From contig JAHHIH010000023.1 of assembly GCA_019358835.1 (NCBI GenBank), positions 1-64,000 of the forward strand: a stretch of 64,000 nt of DNA. Reading direction: 5' to 3'. Each line of letters begins with the position of its first letter. Position 1 is the first letter of the stretch. The translations under genes were made by a program, and so were the position numbers. Of this stretch, positions 1-34,441 are shown piece after piece. The notes under the pieces were generated by a model, which saw nothing but the letters and a program-made list of their open reading frames with translations, was not told the origin of the DNA and did not search any database. The DNA is from Tildeniella torsiva UHER 1998/13D (lineage in GTDB: Bacteria > Cyanobacteriota > Cyanobacteriia > Phormidesmidales > Phormidesmidaceae).

Positions 1-6
1 CAGTTT

Positions 7-366
7 ATGGGTGTACTGTTGGCGCTGGTGATCGTGGGCTTTGTGGCGTGGTGGATTCGCTATAACCAGCTCTACAGTTCTGGGGCGGTGAAGGCTCCGT
101 TCTTCAGTTTTGGCAGTGGGCAGAGCAGGGTTAGAAAGGTGAGGGTGGCCCATCGGCCTGCACCAGCTAATGCTAGAAAAGCGCACGTGGGGAACCAGGC
201 GCAACAGAGAGAAATTGGTCAGGCGGTGAGCCAAATAACGAAGTACACCCATAACTATGATGTTTCGGTGCGGCTGCTGAATTCGACCCATCAGGCCAAC
301 ATGAGTAAGTCGATTGATTGGTGTGCTGAAAAGGTGATTGCAGACATCCTCAGGGATAGGCGATAG
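7..366 (+). CDS. Small protein with N-terminal membrane anchor (possibly 5'-partial)
   Basis: This 119-residue product begins with one strongly hydrophobic stretch (about residues 2-17, ending in WWIR), followed by a basic, soluble region rich in R, K, H and Q. It would sit in the inner membrane with its body in the cytoplasm. The frame is open up to the left edge of the window, so the true start may lie further left; the first ATG is at 7. I do not recognise the family. It faces the minus-strand transfer-like arm, which ends about 190 bp away, and probably belongs to the same integrated element. Confidence 0.5.
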   Translation: MGVLLALVIVGFVAWWIRYNQLYSSGAVKAPFFSFGSGQSRVRKVRVAHRPAPANARKAHVGNQAQQREIGQAVSQITKYTHNYDVSVRLLNSTHQANMSKSIDWCAEKVIADILRDRR

Positions 367-371
367 ACATT

Positions 372-404
372 AAAAAACACCCCCGGCCGAGAGACCGGGG
401 GTGT
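372..404 (-). terminator. Rho-independent terminator of the minus-strand arm
   Basis: A perfect 10-bp stem (377-386 with 395-404, core ACACCCCCGG) has an 8-nt loop. Read on the minus strand it is followed by six T (372-377 on the plus strand are A). It lies downstream of the FtsK-like gene and is the natural end of that operon. The opposite strand has no T run. Confidence 0.75.
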
Positions 405-440
405 GGTGTGGTGACTTCAGTTTAGAGCGGTATTTCGTTC

Positions 441-630
441 CATCCGGTGACCATCCTGCGGGCATCCGGTGAGGCATCCTGCAGGATGGCCGGATGGGTG
501 TCACCGGATGGCCGGATTCCTTGCCAGATATAGACCGGATGTCACAGGATGGGTTTTCTCATCCTGTGGGAGACGAGTCGGGGGGTAGGGTATAGCGGGG
601 TGGTTCATCCTGTGTCTGGTCAATCCTGTG
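441..630. repeat. Cluster of CATCCGG / CATCCTG repeats in both orientations
   Basis: Within 190 bp there are repeated heptamers in both orientations. CATCCGG occurs at 441 and at about 463, with its complement CCGGATG at 490, 504 and 535. CATCCTG occurs at 452, 475, 560 and 606, with CAGGATG at 482 and 545. CATCCTGCAGGATG (475-488) is a perfect palindrome. CATCCGGTGA (441-450) and TCACCGGATG (501-510) are inverted arms. The cluster overlaps the last codons of the FtsK-like gene and its 3' region. It could be a recognition site for that protein, a replication site, or a structured RNA; the sequence alone cannot decide. Confidence 0.75.
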
Positions 631-2040
631 GAGCATGACTAGGCCCGCCAGCACGGCTCTAAACAACTCGCCCTCAAGGTCTTTTAGCTTCTGTCGTTTT
701 GACTTTATCTGATGAGCTTTCAGCGGCTCTGTAGCGGCTTTCAAGACTTCAATAATCAGGTTCTCTATTTCCTCTAAACTCTCGGGTTCTGTCTCGGGGT
801 CGATGGTGAGAGTGTAGGAGGATGGCCCCGCTTTGTCGGCGGGTAGTGAGTAGCTGCCGCCGCCGTCTGCTTCATCTTCACCGGGGAACCAGTCACCAGT
901 GTTTAGTAGCTCTGGAGGCACAACTTCAGAGGCAATGTTGAGGGCTGCAATGTGCTGATCATTGAGGTAAGGCAGTGGGAAGCAGACCCACTGCCCCAGC
1001 AGGTTTGTGAGTATTAATGGATGGCGTTCTGTGAACAGTTGGCGCTTAGCTGATTGATACTCGGCCTCGATTCTTTCGCGTTCGCGTTTGTTGACGAAGT
1101 TGTAGTTATCGATCATCCGTTCGATGGCATCAAAACCACCGAGGCGAGACCCCAGGCAGGCAATCCTAAAATTGCTGCGCACCCCGCCGGAGAACTTAAG
1201 ATCGTCAGCGTTGGGGCTCTGGCTGATCAGCACCATCTGACCGCCGCCGCCACGGGCCACCGCTGCCATGGCCTCTACGCCCAGGTCGAGGCTGCGACCG
1301 TAGGGCTCAAAGACACCCTTTCGCCGCTTCAGGCCAGAGCTGAGGGCTAGGTACTCTTCGAGCACAAACACCAGCTGCGGCCCGTCCCACTGGCCCGCGT
1401 TGACCCGGTTTTGCACCAGGTCTAGGGTTTTGTGCAGCCGGGCACAGAGGGCGTGGGCGTCTTCCATGGATGGGCGAAAGTTGATGCGCACAATATTCTC
1501 GTCGGGCACGCCTGCCCAGTCGGCCCCTTTGCCTTCGACGACCTGCACGCAGGTGGGCCGGGCGCGGCTGCAAACGCCCAGCAGCAGGTAGAGAAAGGCG
1601 CTTTTGCCGGTGTCGGTGGGGGAGAGCACGGCCAGGTGAGTGCGCCATTCTCGACCGGCGCGGCTGAGGTATTCCCACGGGTCGAGAGTGGCCACGGGGG
1701 TGACATCGATGGCGGGGGTTTCTATGGCGTCGGTGCCCTCGTGCCAGAGCAGCTGCTGGCGGGCGGCGTCGGCAACATCTTCGTGGTCGAGCATGGCGCG
1801 GCCTACTTTTACGCTGTCTTCGAGGGCCAGGCGGCCCAGGATGGCGGTGATTGCGCCGGAGGTGATGAGCACGGTTCTGGCCCAATGGAGGCGGAGATCG
1901 CGTTCTTCGACCAGCAGGGTGCTGCCGAGTAGTAGAGACCAGGCCACCAGGCCCAGGCCCCAGGTGAGAACCTGGCGGCGGAACCGAATGCCCTGCAGAA
2001 GGGGGTAATCGACGCGCTCAAAGGGATAGCGACTGGTCAT
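559..2040 (-). CDS. Membrane-anchored FtsK/TraB-like DNA translocase ATPase
   Basis: The 493-residue product has two predicted membrane segments (about 23-44 and 54-72). Its P-loop is SPTDTGKS (140-147, with Ser at the usual Gly/Ala position), and the Walker B-like strand is LVFVLEE (223-229). After a low-complexity acidic linker, residues 421-487 look like a winged helix (IIEVLK... then a basic segment and a wing ending RYTLPP). This order, membrane anchor, ATPase, winged helix, is that of FtsK and of actinomycete TraB translocases. I chose the ATG at 2040 because it overlaps the upstream stop (ATGA); the frame stays open to 2277 but that part would be compositionally odd. It is the last gene of a four-to-five-gene operon. 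Role in moving double-stranded element DNA is inferred. Confidence 0.75.
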   Translation of the reverse strand: MTSRYPFERVDYPLLQGIRFRRQVLTWGLGLVAWSLLLGSTLLVEERDLRLHWARTVLITSGAITAILGRLALEDSVKVGRAMLDHEDVADAARQQLLWHEGTDAIETPAIDVTPVATLDPWEYLSRAGREWRTHLAVLSPTDTGKSAFLYLLLGVCSRARPTCVQVVEGKGADWAGVPDENIVRINFRPSMEDAHALCARLHKTLDLVQNRVNAGQWDGPQLVFVLEEYLALSSGLKRRKGVFEPYGRSLDLGVEAMAAVARGGGGQMVLISQSPNADDLKFSGGVRSNFRIACLGSRLGGFDAIERMIDNYNFVNKRERERIEAEYQSAKRQLFTERHPLILTNLLGQWVCFPLPYLNDQHIAALNIASEVVPPELLNTGDWFPGEDEADGGGSYSLPADKAGPSSYTLTIDPETEPESLEEIENLIIEVLKAATEPLKAHQIKSKRQKLKDLEGELFRAVLAGLVMLHRIDQTQDEPPRYTLPPDSSPTG

Positions 2041-2447
2041 AGCGCCCCCCTTAGCCAAAAGGCGTTGGTGGCGAGCACCAGGGCACCGACCACCATGGCA
2101 AGCCTTGCCCAGCAGTCTGGCCGGTGGTCGGGCAGGGCGATCGCCACCTGAGATAGACAGGTGCAGGTAGGCAGCAGCACCAGCAGCACCAGCACGATCG
2201 CCAGGTAGCCGGGCAGCCACCCTGCCACCAGCAGGGAGAGGGGCAGGCGAAACAGCATGGCGTAGCAGCTCACCCATATGGCCCCGTCGATGACGCCGCC
2301 ACGGGCGGGCAGGGCTATGGCATTGGCGGCTTTATAAAGGCTCTCGCTCTTGATGCTGTAGCGGTTGCCGCCCAGGGAGACGGCAGAGCGCCCCCCAAAG
2401 GCAGTGCGGGTGATGATCTCGGGTTTGTTGGGGTCGGTGTTGGCCAT
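2037..2447 (-). CDS. Small membrane protein upstream of the FtsK-like gene
   Basis: A 136-residue product whose N-terminal third is soluble and whose remainder holds two or three hydrophobic stretches (LFRLPLSLLVAG, LAIVLVLLVLLP, and LAMVVGALVLATNAFWL near the C-terminus). The ATG at 2447 follows the previous gene's stop by two bases, with GAGGT upstream; a GTG at 2456 is an alternative. Its stop overlaps the start of the FtsK-like gene by ATGA, which suggests translational coupling and a shared membrane complex. I do not recognise the family. By position it resembles the small Spd membrane proteins beside traB in actinomycete elements, but there is no sequence proof of homology. Confidence 0.65.
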   Translation of the reverse strand: MANTDPNKPEIITRTAFGGRSAVSLGGNRYSIKSESLYKAANAIALPARGGVIDGAIWVSCYAMLFRLPLSLLVAGWLPGYLAIVLVLLVLLPTCTCLSQVAIALPDHRPDCWARLAMVVGALVLATNAFWLRGAL

Positions 2448-2449
2448 GG

Positions 2450-2749
2450 TTACCACCCACCTCGCTGGGGCTGAACGTACTGCACATCGGGGCGGTTGCT
2501 GCTGTCTACGATCGCGGCCAACAATGCCAGGGGAACGCTGATGGCGATGGAGACGAAGAGCATGTAAACCGCCACAAATAGCGGGTGCAGGCGCTCTGGA
2601 CGGCGCTCAAATTCCGCCACCGGCGGCGGGGTGGTGGGGTGGTGGTGCTGGTGCAGATGCAGCTCGGGGGCGGGCTGCTTTTGGCTGATCGAGCTGGCCC
2701 TCTGTTGGGCCGCAATCCATTGCACTAGGGCGTCTGATTGGTCTTTCAT
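2450..2749 (-). CDS. Single-pass membrane protein with His/Pro-rich N-terminal region
   Basis: The 99-residue product has a charged, glutamine-rich start, a histidine-rich and proline-rich stretch (LHLHQHHHP, residues 31-39, then TTPPP), and one strong membrane segment (about 60-84, LFVAVYMLFVSIAISV...). It ends in a short Q/R/G tail. The soluble N-terminal part would be cytoplasmic. The ATG at 2749 is preceded by an AAGG-type ribosome site. It lies just downstream of a strong terminator (2768-2797) with no room for a separate promoter, so expression must depend on read-through. Family unknown; its place in the operon ties it to the FtsK-like translocase. Confidence 0.6.
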   Translation of the reverse strand: MKDQSDALVQWIAAQQRASSISQKQPAPELHLHQHHHPTTPPPVAEFERRPERLHPLFVAVYMLFVSIAISVPLALLAAIVDSSNRPDVQYVQPQRGGW

Positions 2750-2767
2750 AGGAACCTTTAAAACGAC

Positions 2768-2797
2768 AAAAAGCGCCCCCCAAGGAGATGGGGGCGC
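2768..2797 (-). terminator. Terminator inside the minus-strand operon (possible attenuator)
   Basis: On the minus strand an 8-bp GC stem, GCGCCCCC with GGGGGCGC (2790-2797 and 2773-2781), has a short loop and is followed by five T. It separates the 56-residue gene from the membrane-protein and translocase genes. Only 18 bp remain before the next start codon, too little for a promoter. Confidence 0.7.
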
Positions 2798-2811
2798 GGG
2801 CTCAGCGAACG

Positions 2812-2982
2812 TTATCGAAGCCGCTTGCGTTCTTCGCCAGAGGCGCGGCCTAGGGTGCGAACGGCCTTGTTATAGGCGTCGATATAGGGAAGGCCTGGGT
2901 TTACCAGGGCGATGTAGCGGGCCAGGCGCTCTACGTCGGCCTGGGTGTAGGCGAGCTGGTAATCGGTGATGGGGTTAGGCAT
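2812..2982 (-). CDS. 56-residue protein, unknown function
   Basis: This short gene reads MPNPITDYQLAYTQADVERL and continues to a basic end (EERKRLR) at a TAA at 2814-2812. It starts six bases after the stop codon of the upstream 67-residue gene, so the two are almost certainly one transcript. The composition is that of a soluble, mostly helical protein with no membrane segment. It ends immediately before the operon-internal terminator. I do not recognise the family. The reading is supported by the tight spacing and ordinary codon use, not by similarity. Confidence 0.55.
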   Translation of the reverse strand: MPNPITDYQLAYTQADVERLARYIALVNPGLPYIDAYNKAVRTLGRASGEERKRLR

Positions 2983-2985
2983 GAC

Positions 2986-3189
2986 CTACGCAGCCTCCCC
3001 AGTGCGGTGCTCTAGCTCATCGGCGGCGTGCCAATTGCCCGACATGGCCACCCGGTAAAGCCATGCGCCTTTGTCTGGGTCGTAGTGGCGCACCTTAATG
3101 CTGGTGGGAATCATGGCCCCGCCGAAGAGAAGCCAGACATCGGCGTCTAGCTGAAACTCAGGCGTTGGGATTGATAGGGTCGCGGTCAT
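2986..3189 (-). CDS. 67-residue protein, unknown function
   Basis: A small soluble product (start MTATLSIPTPEFQL, end ADELEHRTGEAA) with a central beta-like, aromatic region (VWLLFGG, KVRHYDP, AWLYRVAMSG). It is the first gene of the minus-strand arm after the repressor. It is followed at once by the 56-residue gene. The region before it (3190-3275) contains an 8-bp inverted repeat, CCCAGGGG/CCCCTGGG (3216-3223 and 3242-3249), which could fold in the leader RNA. No family is recognised. Confidence 0.55.
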   Translation of the reverse strand: MTATLSIPTPEFQLDADVWLLFGGAMIPTSIKVRHYDPDKGAWLYRVAMSGNWHAADELEHRTGEAA

Positions 3190-3275
3190 AATAGAAATGC
3201 CCTCTTTGGGGTAATCCCAGGGGTTTCAGTGCCAACTCGGGCCCCTGGGGTTTACAAAATTGAACAATTTAACTC

Positions 3276-3530
3276 CTAGCTTTGACCTGCCCGACCTAAG
3301 TCGTCTGGCAGGTCTTTTAGTGTGAGGCCGAGGGGCTGGAGAGCATCAAGCAAGCGCTTGAACCCGCCAGGGGTAAAGGCGGGCCGCCCTTTGCCATCCT
3401 CCCAACGGCTAACGGTGGAAGGGGTAACCCCAACCAAAACAGCAAATTCAAACTGAGACATACGGAGCAACTGGCGTAATTGCTTCACGGGAGGATCACC
3501 TTCCGAATCAAACAACTTCTCATTTATCAT
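3276..3530 (-). CDS. XRE-type HTH repressor of the element
   Basis: The 84-residue product contains a helix-turn-helix of the Cro/C1 type: LRQLLRMSQFEFAVLVGV, then TPSTVSRWEDGKGRP, with the typical S-x-x-x-A---V-T-x-x-T-V-S-R-W-E pattern. The C-terminal half (LLDALQPLGLTLKDLP) fits a small dimerisation helix. I chose the ATG at 3530 (MINEKLF); the frame is open to 3578 but the upstream part is the operator DNA. The gene sits between the two divergent arms and abuts a 14-bp inverted repeat, so it probably controls itself and both arms, as phage and conjugative-element repressors do. DNA binding is supported by motif; the regulatory role is inferred. Confidence 0.8.
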   Translation of the reverse strand: MINEKLFDSEGDPPVKQLRQLLRMSQFEFAVLVGVTPSTVSRWEDGKGRPAFTPGGFKRLLDALQPLGLTLKDLPDDLGRAGQS

Positions 3531-3580
3531 TGCACAATCACATGCAATGTGCAAGCATAGATGGCATGCACATTGCATGT
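3530..3580. promoter_or_regulatory. Operator region with 14-bp perfect inverted repeat
   Basis: ACATGCAATGTGCA (3540-3553) is the exact reverse complement of TGCACATTGCATGT (3567-3580), with a 13-bp spacer. A second, nested pair, TTGCAC (3530-3535) and GTGCAA (3549-3554), overlaps the repressor start codon. The site lies exactly between the repressor gene and the plus-strand arm, so it is the likely binding site of that repressor. Confidence 0.7.
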
Positions 3581-3597
3581 CTCACGATACGACATGC

Positions 3598-3630
3598 GGG
3601 GTTGCATCGCATAATGCAACCCCTTTTCTT
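3598..3630 (+). terminator. Hairpin with T-rich tail upstream of the plus-strand arm
   Basis: GGGGTTGCAT (3598-3607) and ATGCAACCCC (3614-3623) form a perfect 10-bp stem with a 6-nt loop, followed by TTTTCTT. It has the form of a terminator on the plus strand, before the first plus-strand gene. It could act as a leader attenuator or, since it repeats the TGCAT core of the operator, as another regulator site. Confidence 0.55.
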
Positions 3631-3667
3631 ATTCTCTCAGTACTCTCTACCCGGAGATAGAGCGCAA

Positions 3668-3904
3668 ATGCGGATAGATCAGCCACAGACCTACAGGCCC
3701 GAGCTAAACAAGAACAATCTGGCCCTGGGGTCAGTAGATGCCACCCACGTCAGAGTTCTCGGCATCATCGCGGCGAAGCCAGACTTCGCCTACCCCCTAG
3801 AGAAGGCCCACTACCTCAGAGACCGGCCATTTCTCTCTACAGCCAACGCTTACCAAGAGTCCCCCATCTGGGATTGGGCCGGTGAGCTGCTAGCCCAGGC
3901 ATAG
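3668..3904 (+). CDS. 78-residue protein, first gene of the plus arm
   Basis: The soluble product begins MRIDQPQTYRPELNKNN and ends WAGELLAQA. The ATG at 3668 is chosen because GGAG lies about 10 bases upstream; the frame is open to 3530 but the upstream part crosses the operator and hairpin. The middle contains a short basic-aromatic segment (YPLEKAHYLRDRP). It follows the regulatory region directly and lies 39 bp before the next gene. I do not recognise the family; early genes in this place often encode regulators or anti-host factors, which is only a positional guess. Confidence 0.5.
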   Translation: MRIDQPQTYRPELNKNNLALGSVDATHVRVLGIIAAKPDFAYPLEKAHYLRDRPFLSTANAYQESPIWDWAGELLAQA

Positions 3905-3943
3905 AACCGCCAGACCCTTTAACCCTCAACCCTCAACCCAACT

Positions 3944-4321
3944 ATGAAAATCACCCAAGTCGAATACCAAGCCCTCTACAACCTGGGCGACTACAACAAC
4001 GAGCGCATTAGCCTGAAGGCCATTCTCGAAGATGGCGAAACCCCAGAAGACGTGGTTGCCCAGCTCCGAGAGAAGGCGATCGCCCTCAACGCTGGCTCTG
4101 GCGGCGAGGCTCAAGACCTCTACAGCCGCATCTACCGCTATAAGCGGGATTTGGAAACGCTGGAAGCCAAAATCAAAACCGCTGCTGACCAGTGGAACCA
4201 GACCGCTACATTCCTCAAAGCTCAAGGCCTCAACCCCGATGCGCCCACTCTGGAGCCGTTCCAGTCACTGCTGGCTCCGGCAGACGAGGGCGTTGTAGAG
4301 GCAGAAATAGACAGTTTCTAA
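3944..4321 (+). CDS. Helical, coiled-coil-like protein of 125 residues
   Basis: The product (start MKITQVEYQALYNLGDYNNE) has an N-terminal segment with a pattern NERISLKAILEDGETPEDVVAQL split by short turns, then a long charged helix (about 57-95, with YRYKRDLETLEAKIKTAADQ) that looks coiled-coil. The first 50 residues resemble small cyanobacterial proteins that pair an EYQ...YNLGNYE-like strand with a DGE-x-x-E-V-x-x-L helix, often near plasmid replication genes. This likeness is from memory of the pattern, not a search. A clear terminator (4329-4365) follows. Confidence 0.6.
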   Translation: MKITQVEYQALYNLGDYNNERISLKAILEDGETPEDVVAQLREKAIALNAGSGGEAQDLYSRIYRYKRDLETLEAKIKTAADQWNQTATFLKAQGLNPDAPTLEPFQSLLAPADEGVVEAEIDSF

Positions 4322-4328
4322 AAGCAGA

Positions 4329-4365
4329 AGGGCCGGAACCCCCCTAAGAGTACCGGCCCTTTTTC
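4329..4365 (+). terminator. Rho-independent terminator after the 125-residue gene
   Basis: AGGGCCGG (4329-4336) pairs with CCGGCCCT (4353-4360), followed by a T-rich run ending near 4365. It separates the two small early genes from the primase-helicase operon on the same strand. Confidence 0.8.
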
Positions 4366-4423
4366 TCTACGAGGTGGAACCGCCAGAACCACCAACCCAA
4401 CCGTATCAGAGCAACAAAGCAAC

Positions 4424-7400
4424 ATGCCTACAACTCAATCTAGCTCAAGAGAGGCTTCACGAACAGTTCACTGTCCCCTGTGCGATCGCGACCACTATTG
4501 CTTCTTAGTCGGCGACCCCATAGAGAAAGTGATCTGCCAGTGGACCGACCCCAACCACCCGCCAGAAGGGTGGAACTACGCCGGGGAAAGCAAAGACCGG
4601 CGGCCCATGTTTGTCACCGCCAAAAAGCGCCACAAATCGCGGCGATTTCCCGACCTGGTGACCCTGCCCCAGCACGAGCTGGTGGAGCCATCACCCGAGT
4701 GGCAGACCGTAGAGCTACCCGCCACCCTCAATGTTGGGGATATTGTACGAAACTCCGCCGATGGCCAGTGCTACCAGGTCAAAGCCCGCAAAGGCCGCAA
4801 AGCTGGTGGAGAGCAGCGGCTCTTTCTCACTCTCACCCCACCAGGGCAGAATAGCCCCGTCGTCGAGGCCCTAGAGAGCGAATGCACCCTGGCCACCACC
4901 GACGGCGAGGCCACCTTTAACGAAATTCGCTACCTCTACCCAGCCCCCATCAGCAAAACAGATTTTGGGTGGATGGTAGTGCGCCGCCAGTGGAGCGATC
5001 GCCGCCGGTGGCTCGAAGACTGCCGTAAGAGCAAGGAAGTGCGGCCCTACCACTGGCAGAGCAGCGGCGAGACCGGCGAATGGGTCAAAGGCCGGGGCGA
5101 ACGCCAATGGCCGCTGTACCGGGAAGACGAGGCCAAAGAGACCATACTTAAGGGTGGGGTGGTGTTTGCCGTTGGGGGAGAGCAGGCCGTCGAGGCGTAT
5201 CGAGCTTTGGGCCAGGTGGCTACCACCTGCGCCGGGGGAGAGGCTCACTGGGAAACCATCGCCGCCAGACTAGAAGACTGCTTTGCCACCGCCCGCCGCA
5301 ACGGCCTGAAGCCCGTTTTGGCCATCCACCCCGATTTTGACCTGGCTGGCGATAACCACTTTGGCCAGCAGCTCCTGAAGGAATGCGGCGATCGGGAAAT
5401 CACGGCAATCGCCATGAACCCCCAAGACATCTGGGGCCAAATTCCCCACGGGGGCGATATCAAAGACATCGTGGATGGCTCCGGCCTCAGCAGCGAGGCC
5501 GTCATTAAGGCCCTGGAACACGCCATCGATGAGGCGATCGACCGCCAGGGCAAAGAAGAGAAACTGCTGATGCAGCGCAGCCGGTGGGGAGCACCCGACA
5601 CTCACCAAGGCGAGCTGGGCTATTGGAAATCTGACGAGAACAAAGGGTTTCAGGTATTTAGCCCGCTGACCAACTTTGATTTTCAGATTGAGAAGGAGGT
5701 GGCCAGCCCCGACGGCGGCGGCTTTGTGATGCAGCTCAAACGGGCCGGTGAGCACCAGCAGTTCAGGGTTTTTCTCCCATCCATGGACTTCACCAGCGTC
5801 CAGACCTTCGAGAACACGCTCAAAAAGGCCTTGGGCGGGGCGCTGATTTGCCGCCTCAGCACCAACGCTATGAAGGCCCTGCTGCGGGTGCGGCTCCACG
5901 AGTACGCCCACAACCGGGGCGGCAAAGTCTATAAGCTCTGCCAACGGGTGGGCCAACAGCCCGATGGGTATTGGGTGTTCCCTCGGTTGCAGCTCACCCC
6001 CAAGGGCGAGACCACCGACGAAAACAAATCGCTTTGGATATGGAACACCGGCCTAACGGGCGATGAAAGCACCCTGCCGAAACCGGCGATCGCCCCGCCC
6101 GAGCCCAACGCGCTTCGCCAGCTGGTGGAAGCGATGGAAGTTTTCTTTGGGCCAAAGAACATCTACCCGGCCCTGCTGACCCTAGGCTATGGGGCCGCCA
6201 GCATCCACTACCAAGAGATTATCGAGACCGAAGGGGCCTTTCCCATCCTTAACCCCTTTGGCGACGCGGGCAGCGGCAAAACCACCGCCGGGCAATGCGC
6301 CCTATCGCTGGTGGGAATGCACACCGAGGCCGCCGGTGGCCTAATGCGTGAGGTTTCTGTTTCAGCGGCCTATGAGCGGCTCAAAATTACCGGGTCGCTG
6401 ATCCACTGTCTAGATGACCCAGCCCGAACCCCAGAGCTAGACGAATTTCTCAAAGGACTCTACAACGGCAAAGCTCGCCTGGTTAGGGGCCAGAATGGGG
6501 CCGCGTTTAACAGCCAGCGACCTCACAGCCCATTAATGGTAACCAGCAACTTCGCCTGTGGCGAGACCAACGCCGCCACCATGAGCCGCATGCTGCTGCT
6601 GTGGTTCGACAACAAGAGCAAGGGCAAAACCCAGACCTACCACCAGCTCACCAAAGCCTGGGATAAAGCCAGCGGCTGTTTGCCCGACCTGATTAAGCTG
6701 GGCTACCCCAAACCGGCGATCGAGGCCATAGAAGCCGACCTGGTGGAGAGTCTGCCCCTGGCCCACAACCGCATTGCCCGCTCATTGGCGCTGGTGGTGG
6801 CCTATACCGAGGCGGTTTGCGAGTTGGCGGGGGTAGGAACCCGACTCAACATTCGTAAGTACGCCGTCGAGACCGTCTGTGCCATGGCCAACGACGCCGA
6901 AAACAGCGCCGACAGCCTGCGCGACTTTGTGGAGCGGCTGTTCATTTTGCGGTCTCAGGCCAAGGTGGGCGAGTGGAACATGCGCTTTATCAGTGACCGC
7001 AGCTGTCACAAAATCAAGTCACTGGCCCTCAACCTGCCCACCATCTGGAACACCCTCGATGGGGCTTTTAAACTCCCCTACAACCTGCGCATCATCAAAC
7101 ACCTGCTTCAGGAGTGCGGGTCAGACCTGGAGAGCAGGCAAAAGTTTCACATTGACGAGGATGTTAGCCGAGCTTTTCAGCGTGGCACTACCCAAGATCC
7201 AAAGTGGCAGGTAAAGCGGTGTGTCGAAATCCCAATCGACGTGATTCGGAACTATGTAGACGCCGACGAAACCCTGTCAACTGAGTCAACCGCCCCCACC
7301 GACAACGACGAAACCCCGGAGCCAAGCGACTTAGGCCAGTTGACAATAGTTAGTCAACTAGATGTCAACAAAGATAGTAATAGTCAACTGAGCGATGGAG

Positions 7401-7759
7401 GGGGGAAGCAGTTGACGGAAAAGTCGTTGTCAACGGACACCACGGTTGACGGCACTTTGTCAACAGGTGAAATCCATACGCAGCAAGCGTTTGAACCCTC
7501 TCAAGAGGGTCAGTTGACAGTGTTGTCAGAGAAATGTGCCCCAACCCTCACGCAAAAACCACCCCTCTATGATTCAGGCGGTTGCCATAGATTAACGCCG
7601 GGTACCCGCTGCAAAGTTTTGGTGGGCCAGTTCACCGGCTCCCTGGTGGAGGTGGTCGAAGACCGGGGCGACGAAGTAGAAGTTCACCGCAGCGGCTGGC
7701 AGATCAGCCGCGAATACACCCGCGACGAATTGGAGGTGCTGAGCCATGCCAATGGATAG
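4424..7759 (+). CDS. Primase-helicase type replication protein of the element
   Basis: The 1111-residue product starts with a cysteine cluster (HCPLCDRDHYC, residues 16-26) like a primase zinc finger. A TOPRIM-like part follows (GGVVFAVGGEQAVEAYRALG about 243-262, and HPDFDLAGD about 301-309). A P-loop, GDAGSGKTT (about 613-621), begins a DUF927/phage-type helicase-like ATPase domain with HCLDDPAR as probable Walker B. Residues 951-1032 are a disordered, S/T/Q-rich linker whose DNA carries eleven iteron-like hexamers. The last 60 residues (TPGTRCKVLVGQFTGSLVEV...) resemble a KOW-type fold. The gene heads an operon in which the next gene starts inside its 3' end. It would unwind and prime element DNA. 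The family assignment is by motif. Confidence 0.75.
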   Translation: MPTTQSSSREASRTVHCPLCDRDHYCFLVGDPIEKVICQWTDPNHPPEGWNYAGESKDRRPMFVTAKKRHKSRRFPDLVTLPQHELVEPSPEWQTVELPATLNVGDIVRNSADGQCYQVKARKGRKAGGEQRLFLTLTPPGQNSPVVEALESECTLATTDGEATFNEIRYLYPAPISKTDFGWMVVRRQWSDRRRWLEDCRKSKEVRPYHWQSSGETGEWVKGRGERQWPLYREDEAKETILKGGVVFAVGGEQAVEAYRALGQVATTCAGGEAHWETIAARLEDCFATARRNGLKPVLAIHPDFDLAGDNHFGQQLLKECGDREITAIAMNPQDIWGQIPHGGDIKDIVDGSGLSSEAVIKALEHAIDEAIDRQGKEEKLLMQRSRWGAPDTHQGELGYWKSDENKGFQVFSPLTNFDFQIEKEVASPDGGGFVMQLKRAGEHQQFRVFLPSMDFTSVQTFENTLKKALGGALICRLSTNAMKALLRVRLHEYAHNRGGKVYKLCQRVGQQPDGYWVFPRLQLTPKGETTDENKSLWIWNTGLTGDESTLPKPAIAPPEPNALRQLVEAMEVFFGPKNIYPALLTLGYGAASIHYQEIIETEGAFPILNPFGDAGSGKTTAGQCALSLVGMHTEAAGGLMREVSVSAAYERLKITGSLIHCLDDPARTPELDEFLKGLYNGKARLVRGQNGAAFNSQRPHSPLMVTSNFACGETNAATMSRMLLLWFDNKSKGKTQTYHQLTKAWDKASGCLPDLIKLGYPKPAIEAIEADLVESLPLAHNRIARSLALVVAYTEAVCELAGVGTRLNIRKYAVETVCAMANDAENSADSLRDFVERLFILRSQAKVGEWNMRFISDRSCHKIKSLALNLPTIWNTLDGAFKLPYNLRIIKHLLQECGSDLESRQKFHIDEDVSRAFQRGTTQDPKWQVKRCVEIPIDVIRNYVDADETLSTESTAPTDNDETPEPSDLGQLTIVSQLDVNKDSNSQLSDGGGKQLTEKSLSTDTTVDGTLSTGEIHTQQAFEPSQEGQLTVLSEKCAPTLTQKPPLYDSGGCHRLTPGTRCKVLVGQFTGSLVEVVEDRGDEVEVHRSGWQISREYTRDELEVLSHANG
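7276..7518. repeat. Iteron-like array of GTCAAC / GTTGAC hexamers inside the rep gene
   Basis: Eleven exact copies lie in 243 bp. GTCAAC starts at 7276, 7285, 7353, 7364, 7383, 7429 and 7459; its complement GTTGAC starts at 7339, 7411, 7445 and 7513. Chance would give about 0.1 copies in either orientation over this length. Several are extended (TTGTCAAC, CAGTTGAC). The encoded segment is a poorly ordered S/T/Q-rich linker of the replication protein, so the repeat is more likely kept as DNA than as protein. A replication origin in the initiator gene, as in phage lambda O, is the likely meaning. Confidence 0.75.
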
Positions 7760-8111
7760 AAGCCGCTACCCCGATAACTGGGAAGAAATAGCCTTTGAAG
7801 TGAAGAGCGAAGCCAATTGGGAATGCCAGGAATGCGGTCGTCCCTGTCGCCAGCCCGGCGAAGATGAGAGCGAGTTTGCCGTAGAGGTTCTGAACCTGGG
7901 CTGGGGCTCCTACTTCGATGCCCCCCAACGATTCACTCTCACAACAGCCCACCTCGACCAAGATCCCCAAAATAACGCCCCCTCCAACCTGCGAGCACTG
8001 TGCTCTGGCTGCCACCTGCGCCACGATGCCCCCTACCGCAAAGCTAACGGCCTGGCCAAACGCGAGCGAGCTGGGCAATTACCGCTGCTGGGAGGTGCGA
8101 TCGATGGGTAG
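7746..8111 (+). CDS. HNH-type nuclease-like protein
   Basis: The 121-residue product carries the HNH pattern: CQECGRPC (about 26-33), a T-A-H-L-D core (67-71) followed by N-N-APSNLRALCSGCHLRHD (about 76-93) with two more cysteines, as in zinc-bound beta-beta-alpha-metal endonucleases. The start at 7746 (or ATG at 7752) lies within the end of the replication gene, giving tight coupling. Small HNH proteins of this kind occur widely in cyanobacterial plasmids and phages; they may nick DNA during replication or mobilisation. Family by motif is firm; the exact job in this element is not known. Confidence 0.75.
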   Translation: MPMDRSRYPDNWEEIAFEVKSEANWECQECGRPCRQPGEDESEFAVEVLNLGWGSYFDAPQRFTLTTAHLDQDPQNNAPSNLRALCSGCHLRHDAPYRKANGLAKRERAGQLPLLGGAIDG

Positions 8112-8523
8112 ACCTTCCGAATGGAGCGGCCCCACTACCGCGATCCGCGTGCCTCTGCACCTGGCCGAGCATTTAAAGGCGATCGCCCGCCAGCTCGATA
8201 ACCCCGAGCCAGCGAATAACGTACAAAACCCCAGCGGCCTCCCCATCTGCAAACCCAAGTCCGACGCCGCCACCATCGCCCAGGGCCTAGCCGAAGGGTG
8301 GATAGTCCCCAAAGCCGCGCCGGTGCCGCCCTACCTGCTCACCAGCACCAGCAGCAAGGGCACTTTTCAGTACACCGTTAACCCGCCGCCCGACATCCCC
8401 TCCGAAGTCTGGGCCGAGGCCGATCGCCTGATTGATGAGGTTTGCGGCCAGATGTCACAGAAAGAACGCTGGCTCATGCTAGGCCGCTTAGTCGAAGAAT
8501 GGGGGAAGAAAGTCGATGTCTAA
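8104..8523 (+). CDS. Ribbon-helix-helix-like protein, 139 residues
   Basis: The product starts MGRPSEWSGPTTAIRVPLHL and continues AEHLKAIARQLDNPE, a T-x-A-I-R-V-P beta strand followed by an amphipathic helix, the usual pattern of the N-terminal RHH-like part of many cyanobacterial plasmid proteins. The remainder has a conserved-looking block (WIVPKAAPVPPYLL, then a TV-PPPDIPSEVW segment and a C-terminal helix). The ATG at 8104 overlaps the stop of the HNH gene (ATGGGTAG), and its own end overlaps the next gene. It may bind DNA, for copy control, partition or regulation; that is inferred. Confidence 0.6.
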   Translation: MGRPSEWSGPTTAIRVPLHLAEHLKAIARQLDNPEPANNVQNPSGLPICKPKSDAATIAQGLAEGWIVPKAAPVPPYLLTSTSSKGTFQYTVNPPPDIPSEVWAEADRLIDEVCGQMSQKERWLMLGRLVEEWGKKVDV

Positions 8524-8716
8524 ACCTAAGAAACCCCGTGTCTGGCTCTCCACCACCGAGGCCGCCGCTGAGCTGGGCTGTGGCCCCAAATATCTCAGAG
8601 AGAACCGCGACAAAATCTTTAAGAAAGGCACCCACTACCGCGTACTCAACCCCGAGGCCTGGCGGCCCACCTACCGCTGGCACATCAAGAAAATCCAGAA
8701 GCTGATGGAGGCATAA
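8516..8716 (+). CDS. Excisionase-like small HTH protein
   Basis: The 66-residue basic product contains VWLSTTEAAAELGCGPKYLR (residues 9-28), a helix-turn-helix of the MerR/excisionase type, followed by a wing-like segment with HYRVLNPEAWRPTYRW. Size, charge and fold fit Xis/AlpA-like recombination directionality factors. It overlaps the previous gene by 8 bp and its stop codon directly touches the next start, all in one operon with replication genes. It probably helps the integrase to excise the element; a role as a plain regulator cannot be excluded. Confidence 0.65.
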   Translation: MSKPKKPRVWLSTTEAAAELGCGPKYLRENRDKIFKKGTHYRVLNPEAWRPTYRWHIKKIQKLMEA

Positions 8717-9133
8717 ATGGTTGCCTATAACTTTCAATCCCAATTTGCTGGGCCTGTAGAGCGTGGCGAAAAGACCCAGACCATACGCCGCAATGGCAAA
8801 CGCCGTCACGCCACGCCTGGTGCTACCCTTCAGCTCTACACCGGGCAAAGGACTAAATCTTGCCGCCTGTTGAGGGAGGCCAAGTGTTTAAACACTTGGG
8901 AGATAGAAATTTATCCGCTTGGCCGGGTGTATCTCGACGGTGAGGCGATCGACGACATAGATATGCTTGAGAAGCTCGCCCAAGATGACGGCTTTCATGA
9001 CATCCCAGCGTTCCTTCTGTTTTTCTGCCCCGCAAACGAACCGTTTAAAGGCGTACTCATAAAGTGGGAGGCTTTGGCCGATCGCCCCGCTCCACCAGCA
9101 GACGATACACACTCTCAATCTGCTGAGAACTGA
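8717..9133 (+). CDS. ASCH-domain-like protein
   Basis: The 138-residue product starts MVAYNFQSQFAGPVERGEKT, then QTIRRNGKRRHATPGATLQL and YTGQRTKSCRLL. The pattern F...V..G.KTQTIR...R....G..L.LYTG.RT is that of ASCH-fold (PUA-like) proteins common in phages and plasmids, which bind RNA or modified nucleotides. The ATG directly follows the TAA of the excisionase-like gene. The last 77 bp overlap the 3' end of the integrase gene on the other strand, so the two operons converge. The biochemical role in this element is unknown. Confidence 0.65.
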   Translation: MVAYNFQSQFAGPVERGEKTQTIRRNGKRRHATPGATLQLYTGQRTKSCRLLREAKCLNTWEIEIYPLGRVYLDGEAIDDIDMLEKLAQDDGFHDIPAFLLFFCPANEPFKGVLIKWEALADRPAPPADDTHSQSAEN

Positions 9134-10145
9134 TCCACCGCTGGTAGGTGCGTGTGTGAACATCAACGCTGTGCCCCATCTGCCGGGCCGATAGCTCCAC
9201 CGGCCACCCAAACAGCAGCGTGCGAATCGCCCAGGCGTGGCGCAGGTCATAGGGAACAAAATCCATACGGGGGCTGAGGTAAGCCGAAACCGAGTGCCCA
9301 ATCTTCTGATTGCTCCGGTCAAGGTCAACCGGTGGGAACACCGGATAGTTCAGCCCCCATTCTTCGGCCCATTCTGGATAGCAGGGCTACACCTCCCTAG
9401 CCCCAGTTTTGGTGGTCTCCCTCACCTTCACCCGAGGGAAGCACGATAGATCGACGTGGAACACCTCATGGTTGCGCAGGCCATAGGTGGCCATCATGCC
9501 GTAGACCCACCGCCACCCTGGGTTTTGTACGTTATTCCTAACCTCTACGATCGCCACATCGGTGGGAAGGTCTCGAGGTGTCACTTTCGTAGGGCTGTAG
9601 TTGCCCCGGTAAGGCCTGGGGTCAAACTCTACGCCCACAAGCTTGGCTAAGGCCCCCGCCGCTACGCAGAACCGAACCCTAGATCGGCTGTTCGGTGTGG
9701 TGCTCTCCACCAGCTGGCGCAGCAAATCCGCTGTTACCACCGCCGCTGGTGGCAGTTTTCGCAGGGGCTTGTAGTAATCGCCCACCCAAGTGTCTTTAGT
9801 GCCACCGGCGGCTAGGTATTGAGCCTCAAATGCGGCGATCGCATCCTCACAGACCCAAGTGGGGACACCTGCCCCCACAACTCCCCACCGCTCCCATTCA
9901 AATTCTCTGGCCGCCAGCTGCGCCCCCAAAAGCCTTGCCTCCTTCTCTGCTCGCCTGAGGCCATCAGGGTTGGCGGGTAGCCCCAGGCTCACCCGCTGCT
10001 GGGATGGATCTGTCTGTGAGCTGCCTGGTTTTGGCGGCAATGTGGCTCGCAGTCGCAACTTATCCCCGTGCTGCTCAACGGTGACCCCCACTTTGCTGGC
10101 CTTGAGTCGGCCATTGACCTGGCGTAATTTACCGGCGATTTCCAC
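9057..10145 (-). pseudogene. int: Tyrosine integrase interrupted by an in-frame amber codon
   Basis: One continuous frame of 363 codons runs from a GTG at 10145 to 9057, but codon 253 is TAG (9389-9387). Upstream are the N-terminal DNA-binding part and catalytic R224 (ATYGLRNHEVF) with the KTGAR strand. Downstream in the same frame are R302 (YDLRHAW, Tyr at the usual His), H325 (QMGHS) and the nucleophile Y334 (TRTYQRW). The codon sits between EV and PCYPEW, where a Tyr codon (TAC/TAT) one base away would fit. So the catalytic half is lost unless the stop is suppressed or is a sequencing error. It lies beside the tRNA-Glu target, as expected for the element's integrase. Confidence 0.85.
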
Positions 10146-10231
10146 GTGCCTAAAATTTGGCCTAAAAAAACAGGGGCGTTTAAGGTTGATTAGGGTTAAT
10201 CAGGGTTGATATACATTTCGCAATGGTATCT
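10146..10231. other. Short integrase-tRNA interval with small direct repeats
   Basis: Between the integrase start and the tRNA terminator the sequence holds GGTTGAT, GGGTTAAT and GGGTTGAT within 25 bp (10188-10212). Short direct repeats here may be arm-type binding sites of the integrase, but this is only a positional suggestion. Confidence 0.3.
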
Positions 10232-10270
10232 AAAAAGCAAGCCCTGTAGGCTTTTGAGCGCTACAGGGCT
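10232..10270 (-). terminator. Terminator downstream of tRNA-Glu
   Basis: On the minus strand a perfect 10-bp stem (10261-10270 with 10240-10249, AGCCCTGTAG and its complement) has an 11-nt loop and is followed after two bases by CTTTTT. It ends the tRNA transcript and lies inside the element side of the junction. Confidence 0.75.
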
Positions 10271-10294
10271 GATGCTATCGTGGTATTAGAACTA

Positions 10295-10367
10295 TACCCC
10301 CAGGGGAATTCGAATCCCCGTCGCCTCCGTGAAAGGGAGGTGTCCTAGGCCTCTAGACGATGGGGGC
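10295..10367 (-). tRNA. tRNA-Glu (anticodon TTC)
   Basis: The 73-nt minus-strand sequence begins GCCCCCATCGTCTAGAGGCC and folds as a cloverleaf. The acceptor stem is GCCCCCA with TGGGGGT (one G-U pair) and the discriminator is A. The anticodon loop is CTTTCAC, giving anticodon TTC, and the T arm is GGGG-ATTCGAAT-CCCC. CCA is not encoded. Its 3' end faces the integrase, so it is the probable attachment site of the element. Confidence 0.95.
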
Positions 10368-10814: not shown

Positions 10815-13800
10815 TTAGACCGATACGGCAACTTCCACAACAATGTCGTTGAAGTCATTGTCGCCGCCGCCAAACAGGTCTTCAAACCCGATCGCGCCAT
10901 CGGTAACGCGGATGTGCTCAACCCCGTCGGCGTTGGCCGCGCCAAAGGTAAAGTAAACCTCGTTGGCGTTGAAGTTATCTAGATTGCCGTTAGCAATCAG
11001 GAAGGGGGCGTAGAGGCTGCCTCCAGCTACCGTTGACTCAAACACTGATGTCGTTAGGTTGGCTGTGGTCAGGGTCACAGCCTCGGCTCGGTTGGCCAGT
11101 GCAGCTTCGGTATACCCCGATTGGCCCGGTGTTACGTCGGCTAGCCCGTCGCCGTTGAGGTCAACGCCGCCGTTGAGATCGGCAATCCGGTAGAAGCCCA
11201 CGAAGTTGTCGAAGGCGGCCTCCCGGTTGACGGAGAAGGTGGTGGTTACGTCCCCAGTTAAGTCACGCAGGTCAAGTAATAGGTCGGAAACTTGATCGCC
11301 AGGGACAGTAGGTGTCAGGGCTTCTAGGGCGCTGGCATCAAATACCGTGGTGCTGCCGCTGACTTCGTTCGCCACCACCACTAGGGGGCTACCGTTAGGG
11401 CTATTAGCAGCAGAAATGAAGGTGAGTCCTTCGGCGCCCAGATCGCCAGCGGTACCGGTCTCGGCATCGCCTGCAAAATCGCGGTTGTTGACGAAGTCCA
11501 CAAAGAACGCTTCGGTGGGGTTAGTGATGTCGTAGGTCATGACGCCACCAAATCGCTCTAGGCCGATAAAGGCGTAGGTGCGTCCGTTAACTTCGCCAAT
11601 CGTGACACCTTCGGGTTCAGGGCCCTTGGCATCGCTGCGGCTATCGAAAGAGCCATTCTCGCTATTGTCAGAATTAAATTCGGTGGGCAACAGTTCGGCG
11701 AGGGTCTGCTCAAACTCTGCGCCGCTGTCGTAGACCAGGTTGCCCTGGGTATCCCAAATCGAGAAGGAGCGTCCTCCAAAGGCATAGAGTTCTTCGTAAA
11801 GCCCGTCGCCGTTAGCATCACCCAGGGTGGTGGTGACGGTAAGGCGGCCCAGGGCCTCGTCGGCCTGAAGCTCAGCGGCGTTGGGGAAGGCCACCGGATC
11901 GAGGGCCAGGTCGCTCACCCGAGCTTCCTCGTTAAAGAAGACACCCTCTTCAGCAATGACGTTGCCCGCTTCATCTTCTAGGTCACCATCAGGGCGGATG
12001 CGAGCATCGCCCTCATTGGCGGTGACAATGTAGGTTTCGCCGCCCACTTCGTAAAGGGAGATGGCGTCGGGCATGTACATGCCAAACAGGTTGGGGTAGG
12101 TGGTAATGTTGATGGCGTCGTCGCGATCGCTGGCATCGAGGGGCACCACCGAGTAATCCTTAAACCCTAGGGGCAGAATGTCGGTGACGGCACCCGAGGC
12201 GATATCCACGACAGCTAGGGCGTTGCTTTCTTGCAGCGCCACGTAGGCCGTGCTGGAGTCGCCAGTGACCGCAATGTACTCAGGCTCAACATCCTGAGCG
12301 ACGGTGGCGTTGAGGCCAAAGATTCGCACCCCAGACGCGACGAGTTCATCCTGCTGGTCGTTAAAGGCGGTGAAGTCGGCGGTGGTGACGCTGGCCTGGG
12401 TGAGGTTTTCTACGCCCCCAGATAGGTCAATAATGCTGATCGAACCCTCGGGGTCAATGGTGTAGTCGTCATTGGGCTCGCCTTCGTTGGCCACCAGCAC
12501 CTTAGTGCCATCGGGGGTAAAGGTCAGCATGTCGGGCAGAGCACCCACGGTGACAGCATTCAGGAAGTTGCCGTCGATGTCAAAAAACACCACGCTGCCG
12601 GGGTCGGTCTTTTCGGCGTTTTCAATGGCTACGGCTACGATGCCATTGCTAATTGCCACGCTGTTGGCCCCAGCCCCGTAGGCCGAGGGGTCAATGTCAA
12701 ACAGTTTGGTGGGGTTGGCGGGATCGCTAATGTCCAGTACCTCCACGGCCGGAACCTGGGCATTGACTACAAACAGCCGCTGGGAGCCTGGGTCGTAGAC
12801 CACGATTTCAGCAGCGCTGGCGTCAAACACTCCAGTCTCGTAGGTGCCCAAGGGGACCAGCAGCGATGCGGGATCGACGCCGGGTTCTGTGGGTTCGGTA
12901 GGATCCGTTGGATCAACGGGGCCAGCACCGTCAATCACGCCATCGCTGCGGAATGCCAGGTTTTGAATGCGGCTGTCTAACTCGCGGCCTGTCTCAGCGG
13001 CGGCAAAAGGCATTTCTGCGCCAAAGTTGTCGAACAGATATTCCGCTAGAGCGTCCTGCTCGCTGAAGTCAGGGGCAAAAGTGGCATTGCCCGTGGCAGG
13101 TGCCGTCTCATCCACCAGATCGATGCGGTTGGTGGTGTCACCCGTGGGGAAGGGGTAGCCATCCCCACCGTCAGCCAAGAAGCTGAGGGTCACCATGCGA
13201 AAGGTGCGGCTAGGGTCGCCCACAATTTCGCCGTTCTGCACCACCACGTCGATATCGGTGCCATCTTCAGCTTCGATAGCCAGGGACTGCACGCGGTTGC
13301 CAGGCTCAGCAGTGACATCAAAGCTAAAGGAAAAGCCGCCGATTTGAGGAAACTGACCGGGAGACACGCTGTCATCTAGGCTGCTGGCCGAAACGCCGTG
13401 TTCCACTAGCGCCAGCAGTTCCTCAGCGGTGACCGTGATCAGCGAGAGCGCGTTGTTAAACGACAGGGCATTGGCCACATCGTTTTGAGAAATACCGCCT
13501 GCGGGCTTGACTCCAGGAATTTCTTCGTTGGGCAGCAGCTCGGCTTCACCCGTGCCGCCCGCTGGCACCAGTGTTTGGCCGATGTTATTGCGAATGCCGC
13601 CGCCGTTTTTGAGGGAAATGACCGCCGCTGGATCAACCTCCTTAGCGATCGCCAGGTTGGCATCGGCGGTGAGGTTGCCCAGATTGGTCTCCTGGGTGCG
13701 TACCGCGCCCCGGTTGCCGTTGAGAAATACCTCGCTGACGCCAAACACGTTGCTCTCGGTGGCAATAATCACCTCGCGCAGGGCCTCGGTAATGGCTGCG

Positions 13801-14870: not shown

Positions 14871-15167
14871 GGATAACACTTGGGGGTTACATCTGGTAGC
14901 CAATGCTACGAGGTCATCTTCGGCCATTACTCACAGCTGCACTTAATGGGGGGGCTAAGTGGCCGGTAAGCTTTGATTAAAAATTGCTTAACAGGCCGCC
15001 CTGCAATGACTTTTCGTGAGGGCTCAACGCCTAGAGATGAAAAGTTAATGACCTCGGCCCAGCGCTGAGGTCAGGCCCTGGGCCACGGCTTAGAATGGCG
15101 TAACCGGGAGATTACCCTCGGCAAGGCTCATGGCCTAGCGGCACCGAACAATCTAGAGAAATTTCCT

Positions 15168-30751: not shown

Positions 30752-30821
30752 AGCAGAAATCTGAGAGCGGGTTGCAGGATTGTTACAATAGTGAGGGCCT
30801 TTGCATCTCACCTCTTCGCCC

Positions 30822-31565: not shown

Positions 31566-31604
31566 TGGCTCCAAAACCTGTGTCTATCCGTTTTGAGGGA
31601 TACT

Positions 31605-34131: not shown

Positions 34132-34404
34132 TGATCCATCTCCTGGGCGGGCTAGGGTTAGGCGGTGATTTTCAAAAGGCTGTGGGATAAGCCGGTGCAA
34201 GGGTTATCCCAACGGTCGAATCCTAGCGCTCAAAGATAAGGATTTTATCACTGTCCTTGCTGCTGCTCGCTAGTACCTACTCCCTGGGCCAGCCCGCTCT
34301 GGGCGGGAGCCCGAGGCCATGCCCGAGCCAACTTAGACACTAAGTATGATCATCATCAATTTTCCTGCCTCTCCAGCTCAATACGCCTCAACCTAGCGCT
34401 AGCC

Positions 34405-34429
34405 GCCCTAACCCTCTACCCCCTACCCA
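34405..34429. repeat. C-rich CCCTA-type short repeat
   Basis: The stretch has the form CCCTAACCCTCTACCCCC-TACCC, a degenerate heptamer repeat. Related stretches occur at 47709-47755 and, in the other orientation, at 52161-52191. Such short tandem repeats are common in cyanobacterial intergenic DNA. Confidence 0.5.
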
Positions 34430-34441
34430 TTCACCCAAAGC

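Follow-up and report, generated by a model that had tools for sequence, protein, structure and literature searches.

A probable provirus-like element integrated at a tRNA-Glu gene of Tildeniella torsiva, with a late gene block that recurs across cyanobacteria

Overview

The 64,000-nucleotide stretch of DNA analysed here (the window) opens contig JAHHIH010000023.1, referred to below as C6, of the cyanobacterium Tildeniella torsiva UHER 1998/13D (assembly GCA_019358835.1), and its first 10.3 kb are the right-hand part of an element of about 19.5 kb integrated at a tRNA-Glu gene. A reading made from the sequence alone had given this element the architecture of an actinomycete integrative and conjugative element (AICE), working either as a conjugative system with a single translocase or as a phage satellite with an FtsK-like motor. 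We put the chance at slightly above one half (about 0.55) that it instead belongs to a provirus-like family not described before, which integrates at tRNA-Glu and is not conjugative. The element is integrated between recognisable boundaries, has sibling and circular forms, and carries a late operon that includes a fibre-like protein. Judged by sequence matches, the late arm encodes this fibre- or receptor-binding-like protein, an FHA protein and, besides them, a conserved block of genes that recurs across cyanobacteria. Literature searches found no description of these elements.

Boundaries, assembly and site occupancy

The first base of the window is the first base of C6, which marks an assembly break and not the end of the element. 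Because the window begins at a contig edge, the absence of capsid, relaxase and type IV secretion system (T4SS) genes is not judgeable from it; the sequence-only reading had reported this absence, along with that of terminase, and none of the four was found in the proteins scanned, while the left part contains a fibre-like gene. That left part lies in the same genome on another contig, C36, whose final 6.5 kb (C36:219118-225672) it occupies, and the integrated element totals 6,555 + 2,654 + 10,289 = 19,498 bp by arithmetic. The left attachment (att) site, which the earlier reading had placed outside the window, was found there: attL repeats the 3' end of the tRNA-Glu gene (C36:219118-219144, 93% over 28 positions, E 0.002), 6.5 kb from the contig end. 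Between it and that end are late genes homologous to the late genes of relatives, and to its left 14 of the 15 called genes have homologues beside the element of the congener genome G415 (68-99% identity). Genes in relatives were called by a simple codon-usage caller, with starts and small genes uncertain. The features at the right-hand boundary are as follows.

10295..10367, minus strand: tRNA-Glu (TTC) gene, the integration site
10290..10317, no strand: attR core, the tRNA-Glu 3' end; the attL copy is outside the window
9057..10145, minus strand: tyrosine integrase gene, split by an in-frame TAG at 9387-9389

A third contig of the same genome, C31 (locus L149), is 19,415 bp long, has an exact 127-bp terminal overlap and represents a sibling element with circular ends; it may be a free circle, or it may sit between two repeat copies. 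C6 begins with 126 bases that match positions 2781-2906 of the reverse complement of C31 exactly, the last 126 bases of C36 are identical to a stretch present at both C31 ends, and window bases 1-176 have a 95% copy in C31. Apparently, a 2.9-kb repeat identical in two elements was collapsed by the assembler and joins C36 to C6 via C31. When positions 1-2906 of the reverse complement of C31 are set against the C36 end and the window start, this 2.9-kb stretch, which holds the fibre and FHA genes, appears identical; the flanking late genes of the two elements that share it are only 84-88% identical. Such identity amid diverged flanks suggests that the fibre locus has recently undergone recombination or gene conversion.

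Occupancy of this site was compared in 26 genomes of the genus, the window's own included, using the two flanks joined into one query. The site was empty, with a match uninterrupted across the junction, in seven genomes (G418, G410, G429, G417, G427, G408 and G409; 72-83% identity, only part of the query matching in three of them). A long insert split the query in G415:C27 and G416:C9, and it was split across contigs in the window's genome; 14 further genomes returned mainly the tRNA side or separate pieces, and two returned no match. The two other filled sites hold inserts, att to att, of 19,596 bp (G415) and 20,167 bp (G416:C9). As to the integrase, the earlier reading was right about its kind and its place beside tRNA-Glu and wrong in taking it for one open frame. 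Its C-terminal part matches PF00589 (E 0.0023, under the curated cut-off), it is homologous to the uninterrupted integrases of relatives, and a sense codon occupies the TAG position in G416:C9, G410, G418, C31 and G415. Since the gene carries a stop codon, the window copy is probably impaired in excision. Just past the tRNA, on the non-element side, lies an open reading frame (ORF) of 1370 amino acids (aa) at window positions 10815-14927.

The late block and its distribution

The late arm, read from C36 and, for the repeat, from C31, has about 11 genes and converges on the ATPase arm. It encodes F6 (99 aa), a proline-rich protein of 785-873 aa, F0 (525 aa here), proteins of 167, 226 and 83 aa, then a 156-aa protein, the fibre-like protein of 404 aa, a 139-aa protein, the FHA-domain protein and the membrane protein F15; in relatives, the block runs F6-F3-F0-F2-F10-F1. 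Only its last gene falls in the window, with the contig edge 6 bases upstream of it.

7..366, plus strand: F15, a small protein with a hydrophobic N-terminus, last gene of the late arm; 49% to a 95-aa gene in the same place in G410

The 404-aa protein matches PF07880 (T4_gp9_10_N; E 2.5e-5, with 24.9 bits where the cut-off is 25) as well as PHROG minor-tail, tail-fibre and head-decoration families. Portions of it are matched in 274 phage records, with no match covering more than 80% of the protein. The sequence-only reading had named structural genes of phages in the left part as evidence that would tell against it, and this one protein is of that sort. The FHA protein matches PF00498 (E 2.5e-17) and the 226-aa protein one PHROG family without assigned function (E 8e-4); apart from the F3 matches given below, the remaining block proteins gave no other notable match in these scans. 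In another lineage (L107) the gene behind F1 encodes a phage-tail-repeat protein (PF12789, E 1.7e-10), and at 12203-13945 of L119, three genes past F1, an N-terminus of endolysin type (PHROG, E 4e-11) is joined to a C-terminal Amidase (PF01425). Swapping fibre-type proteins downstream of a constant set of genes is something that phages do.

Structural models of F2 (A3) and F0 (A6) were fairly confident, with a predicted local distance difference test score (pLDDT) of 83 and 87. Foldseek found no match at E 0.001 or better in a viral library for the F2 model, the one compared with it, and a second structural aligner gave Z scores under 5 for both proteins and no jelly-roll match. Among the best structural rows of F0, viral capsid folds appeared with low scores only, and F0 may still have such a fold. 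The look-alikes of F0 resembling 2H-phosphoesterases (Z under 5) were taken to reflect a shared arrangement. A missing fold match is no proof of a new fold.

F0 profile A1, built from four rows, was found in 26 of 386 cyanobacterial genomes and 21 of 143 genera at E 1e-3, and the long form of F0 from the window's genome in 25 genomes and 20 genera at E 1e-6; eight genomes are in both lists, and the two combined cover 43 of the 386, both 386-genome sets being taken as the same. Across 35 F0 loci with neighbourhood, a co-directional gene of at least 350 aa stands within two genes upstream in 34, an F2-type gene within three downstream in 31, and an F1-type gene within six in 29. Integrases of the F8/F9 family were present in 26 of 40 late-block loci, some of the stretches being short. 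The regions counted were 20 chosen from two search lists, the other contig loci except L116, and two HT-58-2 plasmids, with the duplicates L103, L105 and L108 dropped. The locus-by-family table served for the integrase count only, as its low-complexity F3 profile over-counts (40/40) and its F0 profile missed four of the 40 loci (C31, G416:C9, L131 and L176). In two genomes, paired F0 copies with equal scores occur on one contig (G191:C1 at 1070443 and 6170870; G014:C1 at 894009 and 2964283), possibly as recent duplications.

A search of 72,556 plasmid records with two F0 queries returned two records each. F0 and all or part of the block thereby appear on four circular plasmid records (15.6, 37.0, 20.8 and 20.8 kb), namely pHT582-2 (15.6 kb) and pHT582-1 (37.0 kb) of Nostocales HT-58-2, a 20,757-bp plasmid of Tolypothrix PCC 7601 and pMIC7113.08 (20,803 bp) of Allocoleopsis PCC 7113. 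The Tolypothrix circle combines late-block genes with a membrane P-loop ATPase of 396 aa, which is 36% identical over 195 residues to that of Calothrix elsteri (L115), where the ATPase adjoins the late block.

The ATPase operon

Opposite the late arm lies an operon of small proteins and a P-loop ATPase.

559..2040, minus strand: membrane-anchored P-loop ATPase of the distant HerA/FtsK superfamily, with a possible winged-helix C-terminus; Walker A LSPTDTGKS, one hydrophobic segment
2037..2456, minus strand: 139-aa membrane protein with three hydrophobic segments, overlapping the ATPase start by 4 nucleotides; 64% in G410
2450..2749, minus strand: 99-aa protein with one hydrophobic segment, overlapping the 139-aa gene by 7 nucleotides; 61% in G410
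2812..2982, minus strand: 56-aa conserved small protein of the ATPase arm; 73% in G415
2986..3189, minus strand: 67-aa conserved small protein of the ATPase arm; 67% in G415, 82% in G416:C9

These overlaps fit the translational coupling of the two small membrane proteins to the ATPase that had been described, and the P-loop and membrane segment of the ATPase are likewise present; its winged-helix C-terminus is weakly supported. The window ATPase matched no Pfam family up to E 10, PF01580 included, and nothing in NCBIfam or PHROGs at E 0.1. Profile A7, made from five rows of the closest ATPase group, gave five matches in the PDB up to E 10: the best was the winged-helix region of 2g9w (E 0.044, weak), and the other four, at a non-significant E 0.4 to 1.2, were three FtsK/SpoIIIE or EccC structures and one uncharacterized protein. 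The likeness to HerA/FtsK proteins is a distant one, at superfamily level, and PF01580, the FtsK_SpoIIIE model, gave no match. Relatives diverge in affinity. Three of their ATPases are nearest DUF87/HerA (Pfam E 4e-4 to 9e-4, below the cut-off), with sub-threshold matches to TraG P-loop models as well, that of L115 is nearest T2SSE (E 0.003), and two others are without match; profile A8, of a second ATPase group, is nearest the DUF87 structure PDB 8yho (E 2e-4), with unrelated P-loop proteins following from E 8e-4.

The window ATPase has a 61% homologue in G410. Searches of 63 genomes of the order gave one full homologue and weaker, mostly C-terminal, matches; in the 386 genomes of the phylum only its own copy was found, and viral contigs, phage records and plasmid records gave no direct homologue. 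Alignment indicates that N-terminus, core and C-terminus were exchanged independently among relatives. One membrane N-terminus is common to G415, G418, C31, G416:C36, G417:C30 and G415:C36, which have two kinds of core; G416:C9 joins the G415/G418 core to a different N-terminus; and the window and G410 ATPases have their own N-terminus and core and a C-terminus in common with G418 and G415. In C31, the slot is filled by the G415-group membrane N-terminus fused to a different C-terminal domain without P-loop. The motor is thus modular and optional, and at least in part it is common to these elements and plasmids.

Two ParA-type contigs, L059 (G429:C24) and L060 (G417:C8), each have the three-gene operon followed by a conserved 80-aa gene, and G415:C36 (L056) has it with a ParA-like gene nearby. 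A defence system was considered and rejected: PADLOC gave no match for the window ATPase or its 139-aa partner. On relatives, it gave one match for a 156-aa membrane protein (E 0.026) and five P-loop matches for one ATPase (best E 1e-5).

Other genes of the window

The remaining element genes lie between the ATPase arm and the integrase.

3276..3530, minus strand: XRE-type repressor (HTH_3 E 6e-9), with an alternative upstream start at 3578
3540..3580, no strand: 17-nucleotide inverted repeat, candidate operator between the arms; 94% complementary, 7-nucleotide spacer
3944..4321, plus strand: conserved protein F28, 125 aa; 72% in the G416:C9 element
4424..7759, plus strand: primase-helicase, 1111 aa; phrog_1139 DNA primase E 1e-7; 86% in G415
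7746..8111, plus strand: HNH endonuclease-like protein; phrog_1571 E 4e-22
8104..8523, plus strand: conserved protein F21, 139 aa; about 61% in G415
8516..8716, plus strand: excisionase-like helix-turn-helix protein; HTH_17 E 0.009 and phrog_66 excisionase E 0.0066, both weak; 94% in G415
8717..9133, plus strand: 138-aa protein of a PHROG family without assigned function; phrog_8581 E 4e-11; 77% in G418

The repressor between divergent arms, the large primase-helicase and the excisionase-like protein were all recognised correctly in the sequence-only reading. The 17-nucleotide repeat upstream of the repressor is likely its operator; a second inverted repeat, of 10 nucleotides, lies at 3598-3623. 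The primase-helicase has no Pfam match at E 0.1, DUF927 at E 0.17 being the sole one, and has a 33% match on a Nostoc plasmid; its relatives occur on Nostoc and Gloeothece plasmids with other backbones. The DUF87 membrane ATPase of the Nostoc plasmid has no significant similarity to the window ATPase. Plasmid unnamed7 of Nostoc sp. UHCC 0870 (L013), which carries a relative of the window primase, has at 30432-35421 an operon for an actin-like protein (ALP_N, E 4e-8) and a DUF87 ATPase (E 2.5e-9).

The ratio of nonsynonymous to synonymous substitution (dN/dS, Nei-Gojobori) was 0.055-0.448 in 13 pairwise comparisons of element genes of both arms, which are therefore under purifying selection. 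For the ATPase, the two membrane proteins and the primase it was 0.17-0.45 against relatives, and these four are therefore not chance ORFs.

Interpretation and alternatives

Upon derepression, integrase and Xis would excise a circle, the primase-helicase would replicate it, and the late arm would build a particle with an exchangeable fibre. More speculatively, the ATPase and its membrane partners, in elements that carry them, might load or extrude DNA at the membrane. Of the options raised by the sequence-only reading, a phage-type element with an FtsK-like motor comes closer, the role of the motor being presumed. In its most specific form, the provirus-like reading would make the late block a virion of proteins without known fold and these elements an undescribed family of small temperate cyanobacterial viruses, some with a membrane-anchored HerA/FtsK-type DNA machine. 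We regard this form as a tentative possibility, short of probable. Several observations weigh against the provirus-like reading as a whole. No capsid, portal, terminase or tail-tube match was obtained with PHROG and Pfam in the late proteins scanned, and in the PDB no structure matched either the F0 or the F2 model by Foldseek at E 0.001 or better. One F3 protein, of low complexity, has tape-measure-like PHROG matches (E 2e-5 and 9e-4), which could mean a tail. No relative of F0, the ATPase or two primases turned up in pattern scans of IMG/VR, a method that detects mainly close relatives, nor did a tblastn search of 50,697 phage records yield one of F0, the ATPase or the window primase. The plasmid pHT582-2 combines ParA/ParB and an integrase with only part of the late block, and the three-gene membrane/ATPase operon is found too on ParA plasmids of congeners, where the stretches taken show no late block. 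An N-terminally hydrophobic P-loop protein was counted in 8 of 34 late-block loci of at least 15 kb, by a crude filter that includes two doubtful cases (L130 and L176) and missed G410, and a pattern search found no P-loop in any C31 ORF of at least 40 aa, sibling element though it is; the weight given is lower because the membrane P-loop protein is in a minority of late-block loci.

The same observations bear on three other explanations. The elements could be phage satellites that excise, use their own primase and travel in a helper's particles while adding their own fibre or adsorption module, the ATPase operon then serving exclusion, interference or packaging. An integrase, a Xis, a primase and a repressor with neither terminase nor capsid make up the satellite layout, the size of 19-20 kb fits, and so do the likeness of the fibre to minor tail proteins of tailed phages and the tape-measure-like F3 protein; a helper of known tailed type, however, might be expected to share F0, which has no homologue in the phage records or the IMG/VR scans, and the late block spans many genera. 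We consider this unlikely. Rather unlikely, too, is a conjugative or plasmid-transfer element of TraB type, in which the membrane ATPase would pump double-stranded DNA, the small proteins would form its channel and the late block a surface adhesion apparatus. The operon on ParA plasmids speaks for it, as does the DUF87/HerA and TraG affinity of three relatives' ATPases; A8 is also nearest a DUF87 structure, with unrelated P-loop proteins close behind. A single membrane motor moving double-stranded DNA is possible. Yet PF01580 gave no match, C31 has no P-loop and has kept the rest, the fibre genes are phage-like, and no relaxase, coupling protein, mating-pair formation or T4SS protein had a Pfam match among the window proteins other than F15 and a 78-aa ORF at 3668, or among eight late proteins of C36 and C31 (the 83- and 139-aa ones excepted, and F3 without its N-terminus). 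Conjugation by a single translocase in the manner of AICEs is not supported. Most doubtful is a decaying or domesticated element, with a phage-tail-like or adhesion cassette in host service on a plasmid-like backbone: the window integrase is interrupted and F8/F9 integrases are in only 26 of 40 loci (some short), whereas the low dN/dS of late and early genes, the uninterrupted integrases of siblings, the occurrence of both empty and filled sites, and the circular forms all point towards active mobility.

If the late block does encode such a virion, a virus family would be present in about a tenth of the sampled cyanobacterial genomes and unseen in the viral collections searched, with the parts of the HerA/FtsK-type machine of some members exchanged between relatives and shared with plasmids. 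Proviruses without the capsid or terminase common to known phages can escape virus-finding programs, and with this family a major photosynthetic phylum would gain a layer of virus-like elements so far unseen. The role of a membrane motor common to these elements and plasmids would also become testable.

Comparison with known systems

In the defining passages of PMC3218068, AICEs have a Tra protein with an FtsK/SpoIIIE domain (PF01580) and RepSA, RepAM (PF12307) or Prim-Pol (PF09250) for replication. Like AICEs of the pSAM2 type, the present element has a tRNA-targeting integrase, a Xis-like gene, its own replication protein and one membrane P-loop ATPase with small membrane proteins, and an integrase with tRNA attachment site is attested by attL and attR and by empty and filled sites, the window integrase carrying a stop. 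Unlike them, it has an ATPase without PF01580, a replication protein that matches no AICE Rep or Prim-Pol Pfam model (RepSA being a model of that paper's own), a late operon with a phage fibre, and a host that is not an actinomycete. From these domain comparisons, membership is not supported and the AICE label should not be used; working like an AICE is distinct from being one.

The packaging ATPase of the PM2 group is described as FtsK-like in a passage of PMC5894146. Small genomes, integrated or circular, and a P-loop ATPase with small membrane proteins are points of likeness to the PM2/tectivirus group. The differences are that no jelly-roll capsid was recognised, a test for a double jelly-roll capsid having been limited to two modelled late proteins, F0 and F2, neither of which matched, and that the ATPase is N-terminally membrane-anchored with exchanged parts; as an FtsK/HerA packaging ATPase it offers a Walker A motif and weak superfamily-level matches, and it is absent from C31. 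Among marks of tailed phages, terminase, portal and HK97-fold capsid were not matched in the late proteins scanned, the matches being to fibre, minor-tail, head-decoration and tape-measure-like families only. P4-like and other satellites share a backbone that has integrase, Xis, primase and repressor but neither terminase nor capsid; they differ in that the present elements have a long conserved late block, an F0 absent from the phage records searched, and circular plasmid-like relatives.

Known phage-plasmids are tailed phages that have capsid genes. The circular relatives in which ParA/ParB stands next to late-block genes resemble them, although no capsid gene was recognised in these elements. 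The Zot/pI protein of inoviruses is a membrane-anchored ATPase of the HerA/FtsK superfamily that is accompanied by small membrane proteins; the Zot model is not among the Pfam matches listed for the window ATPase or those of relatives, the element is larger and has a primase, and neither F0 nor F2 is a small helical coat protein. Closer to home, the Tycheposons of Prochlorococcus are tRNA-associated tyrosine-recombinase elements of cyanobacteria, as is the element described here.

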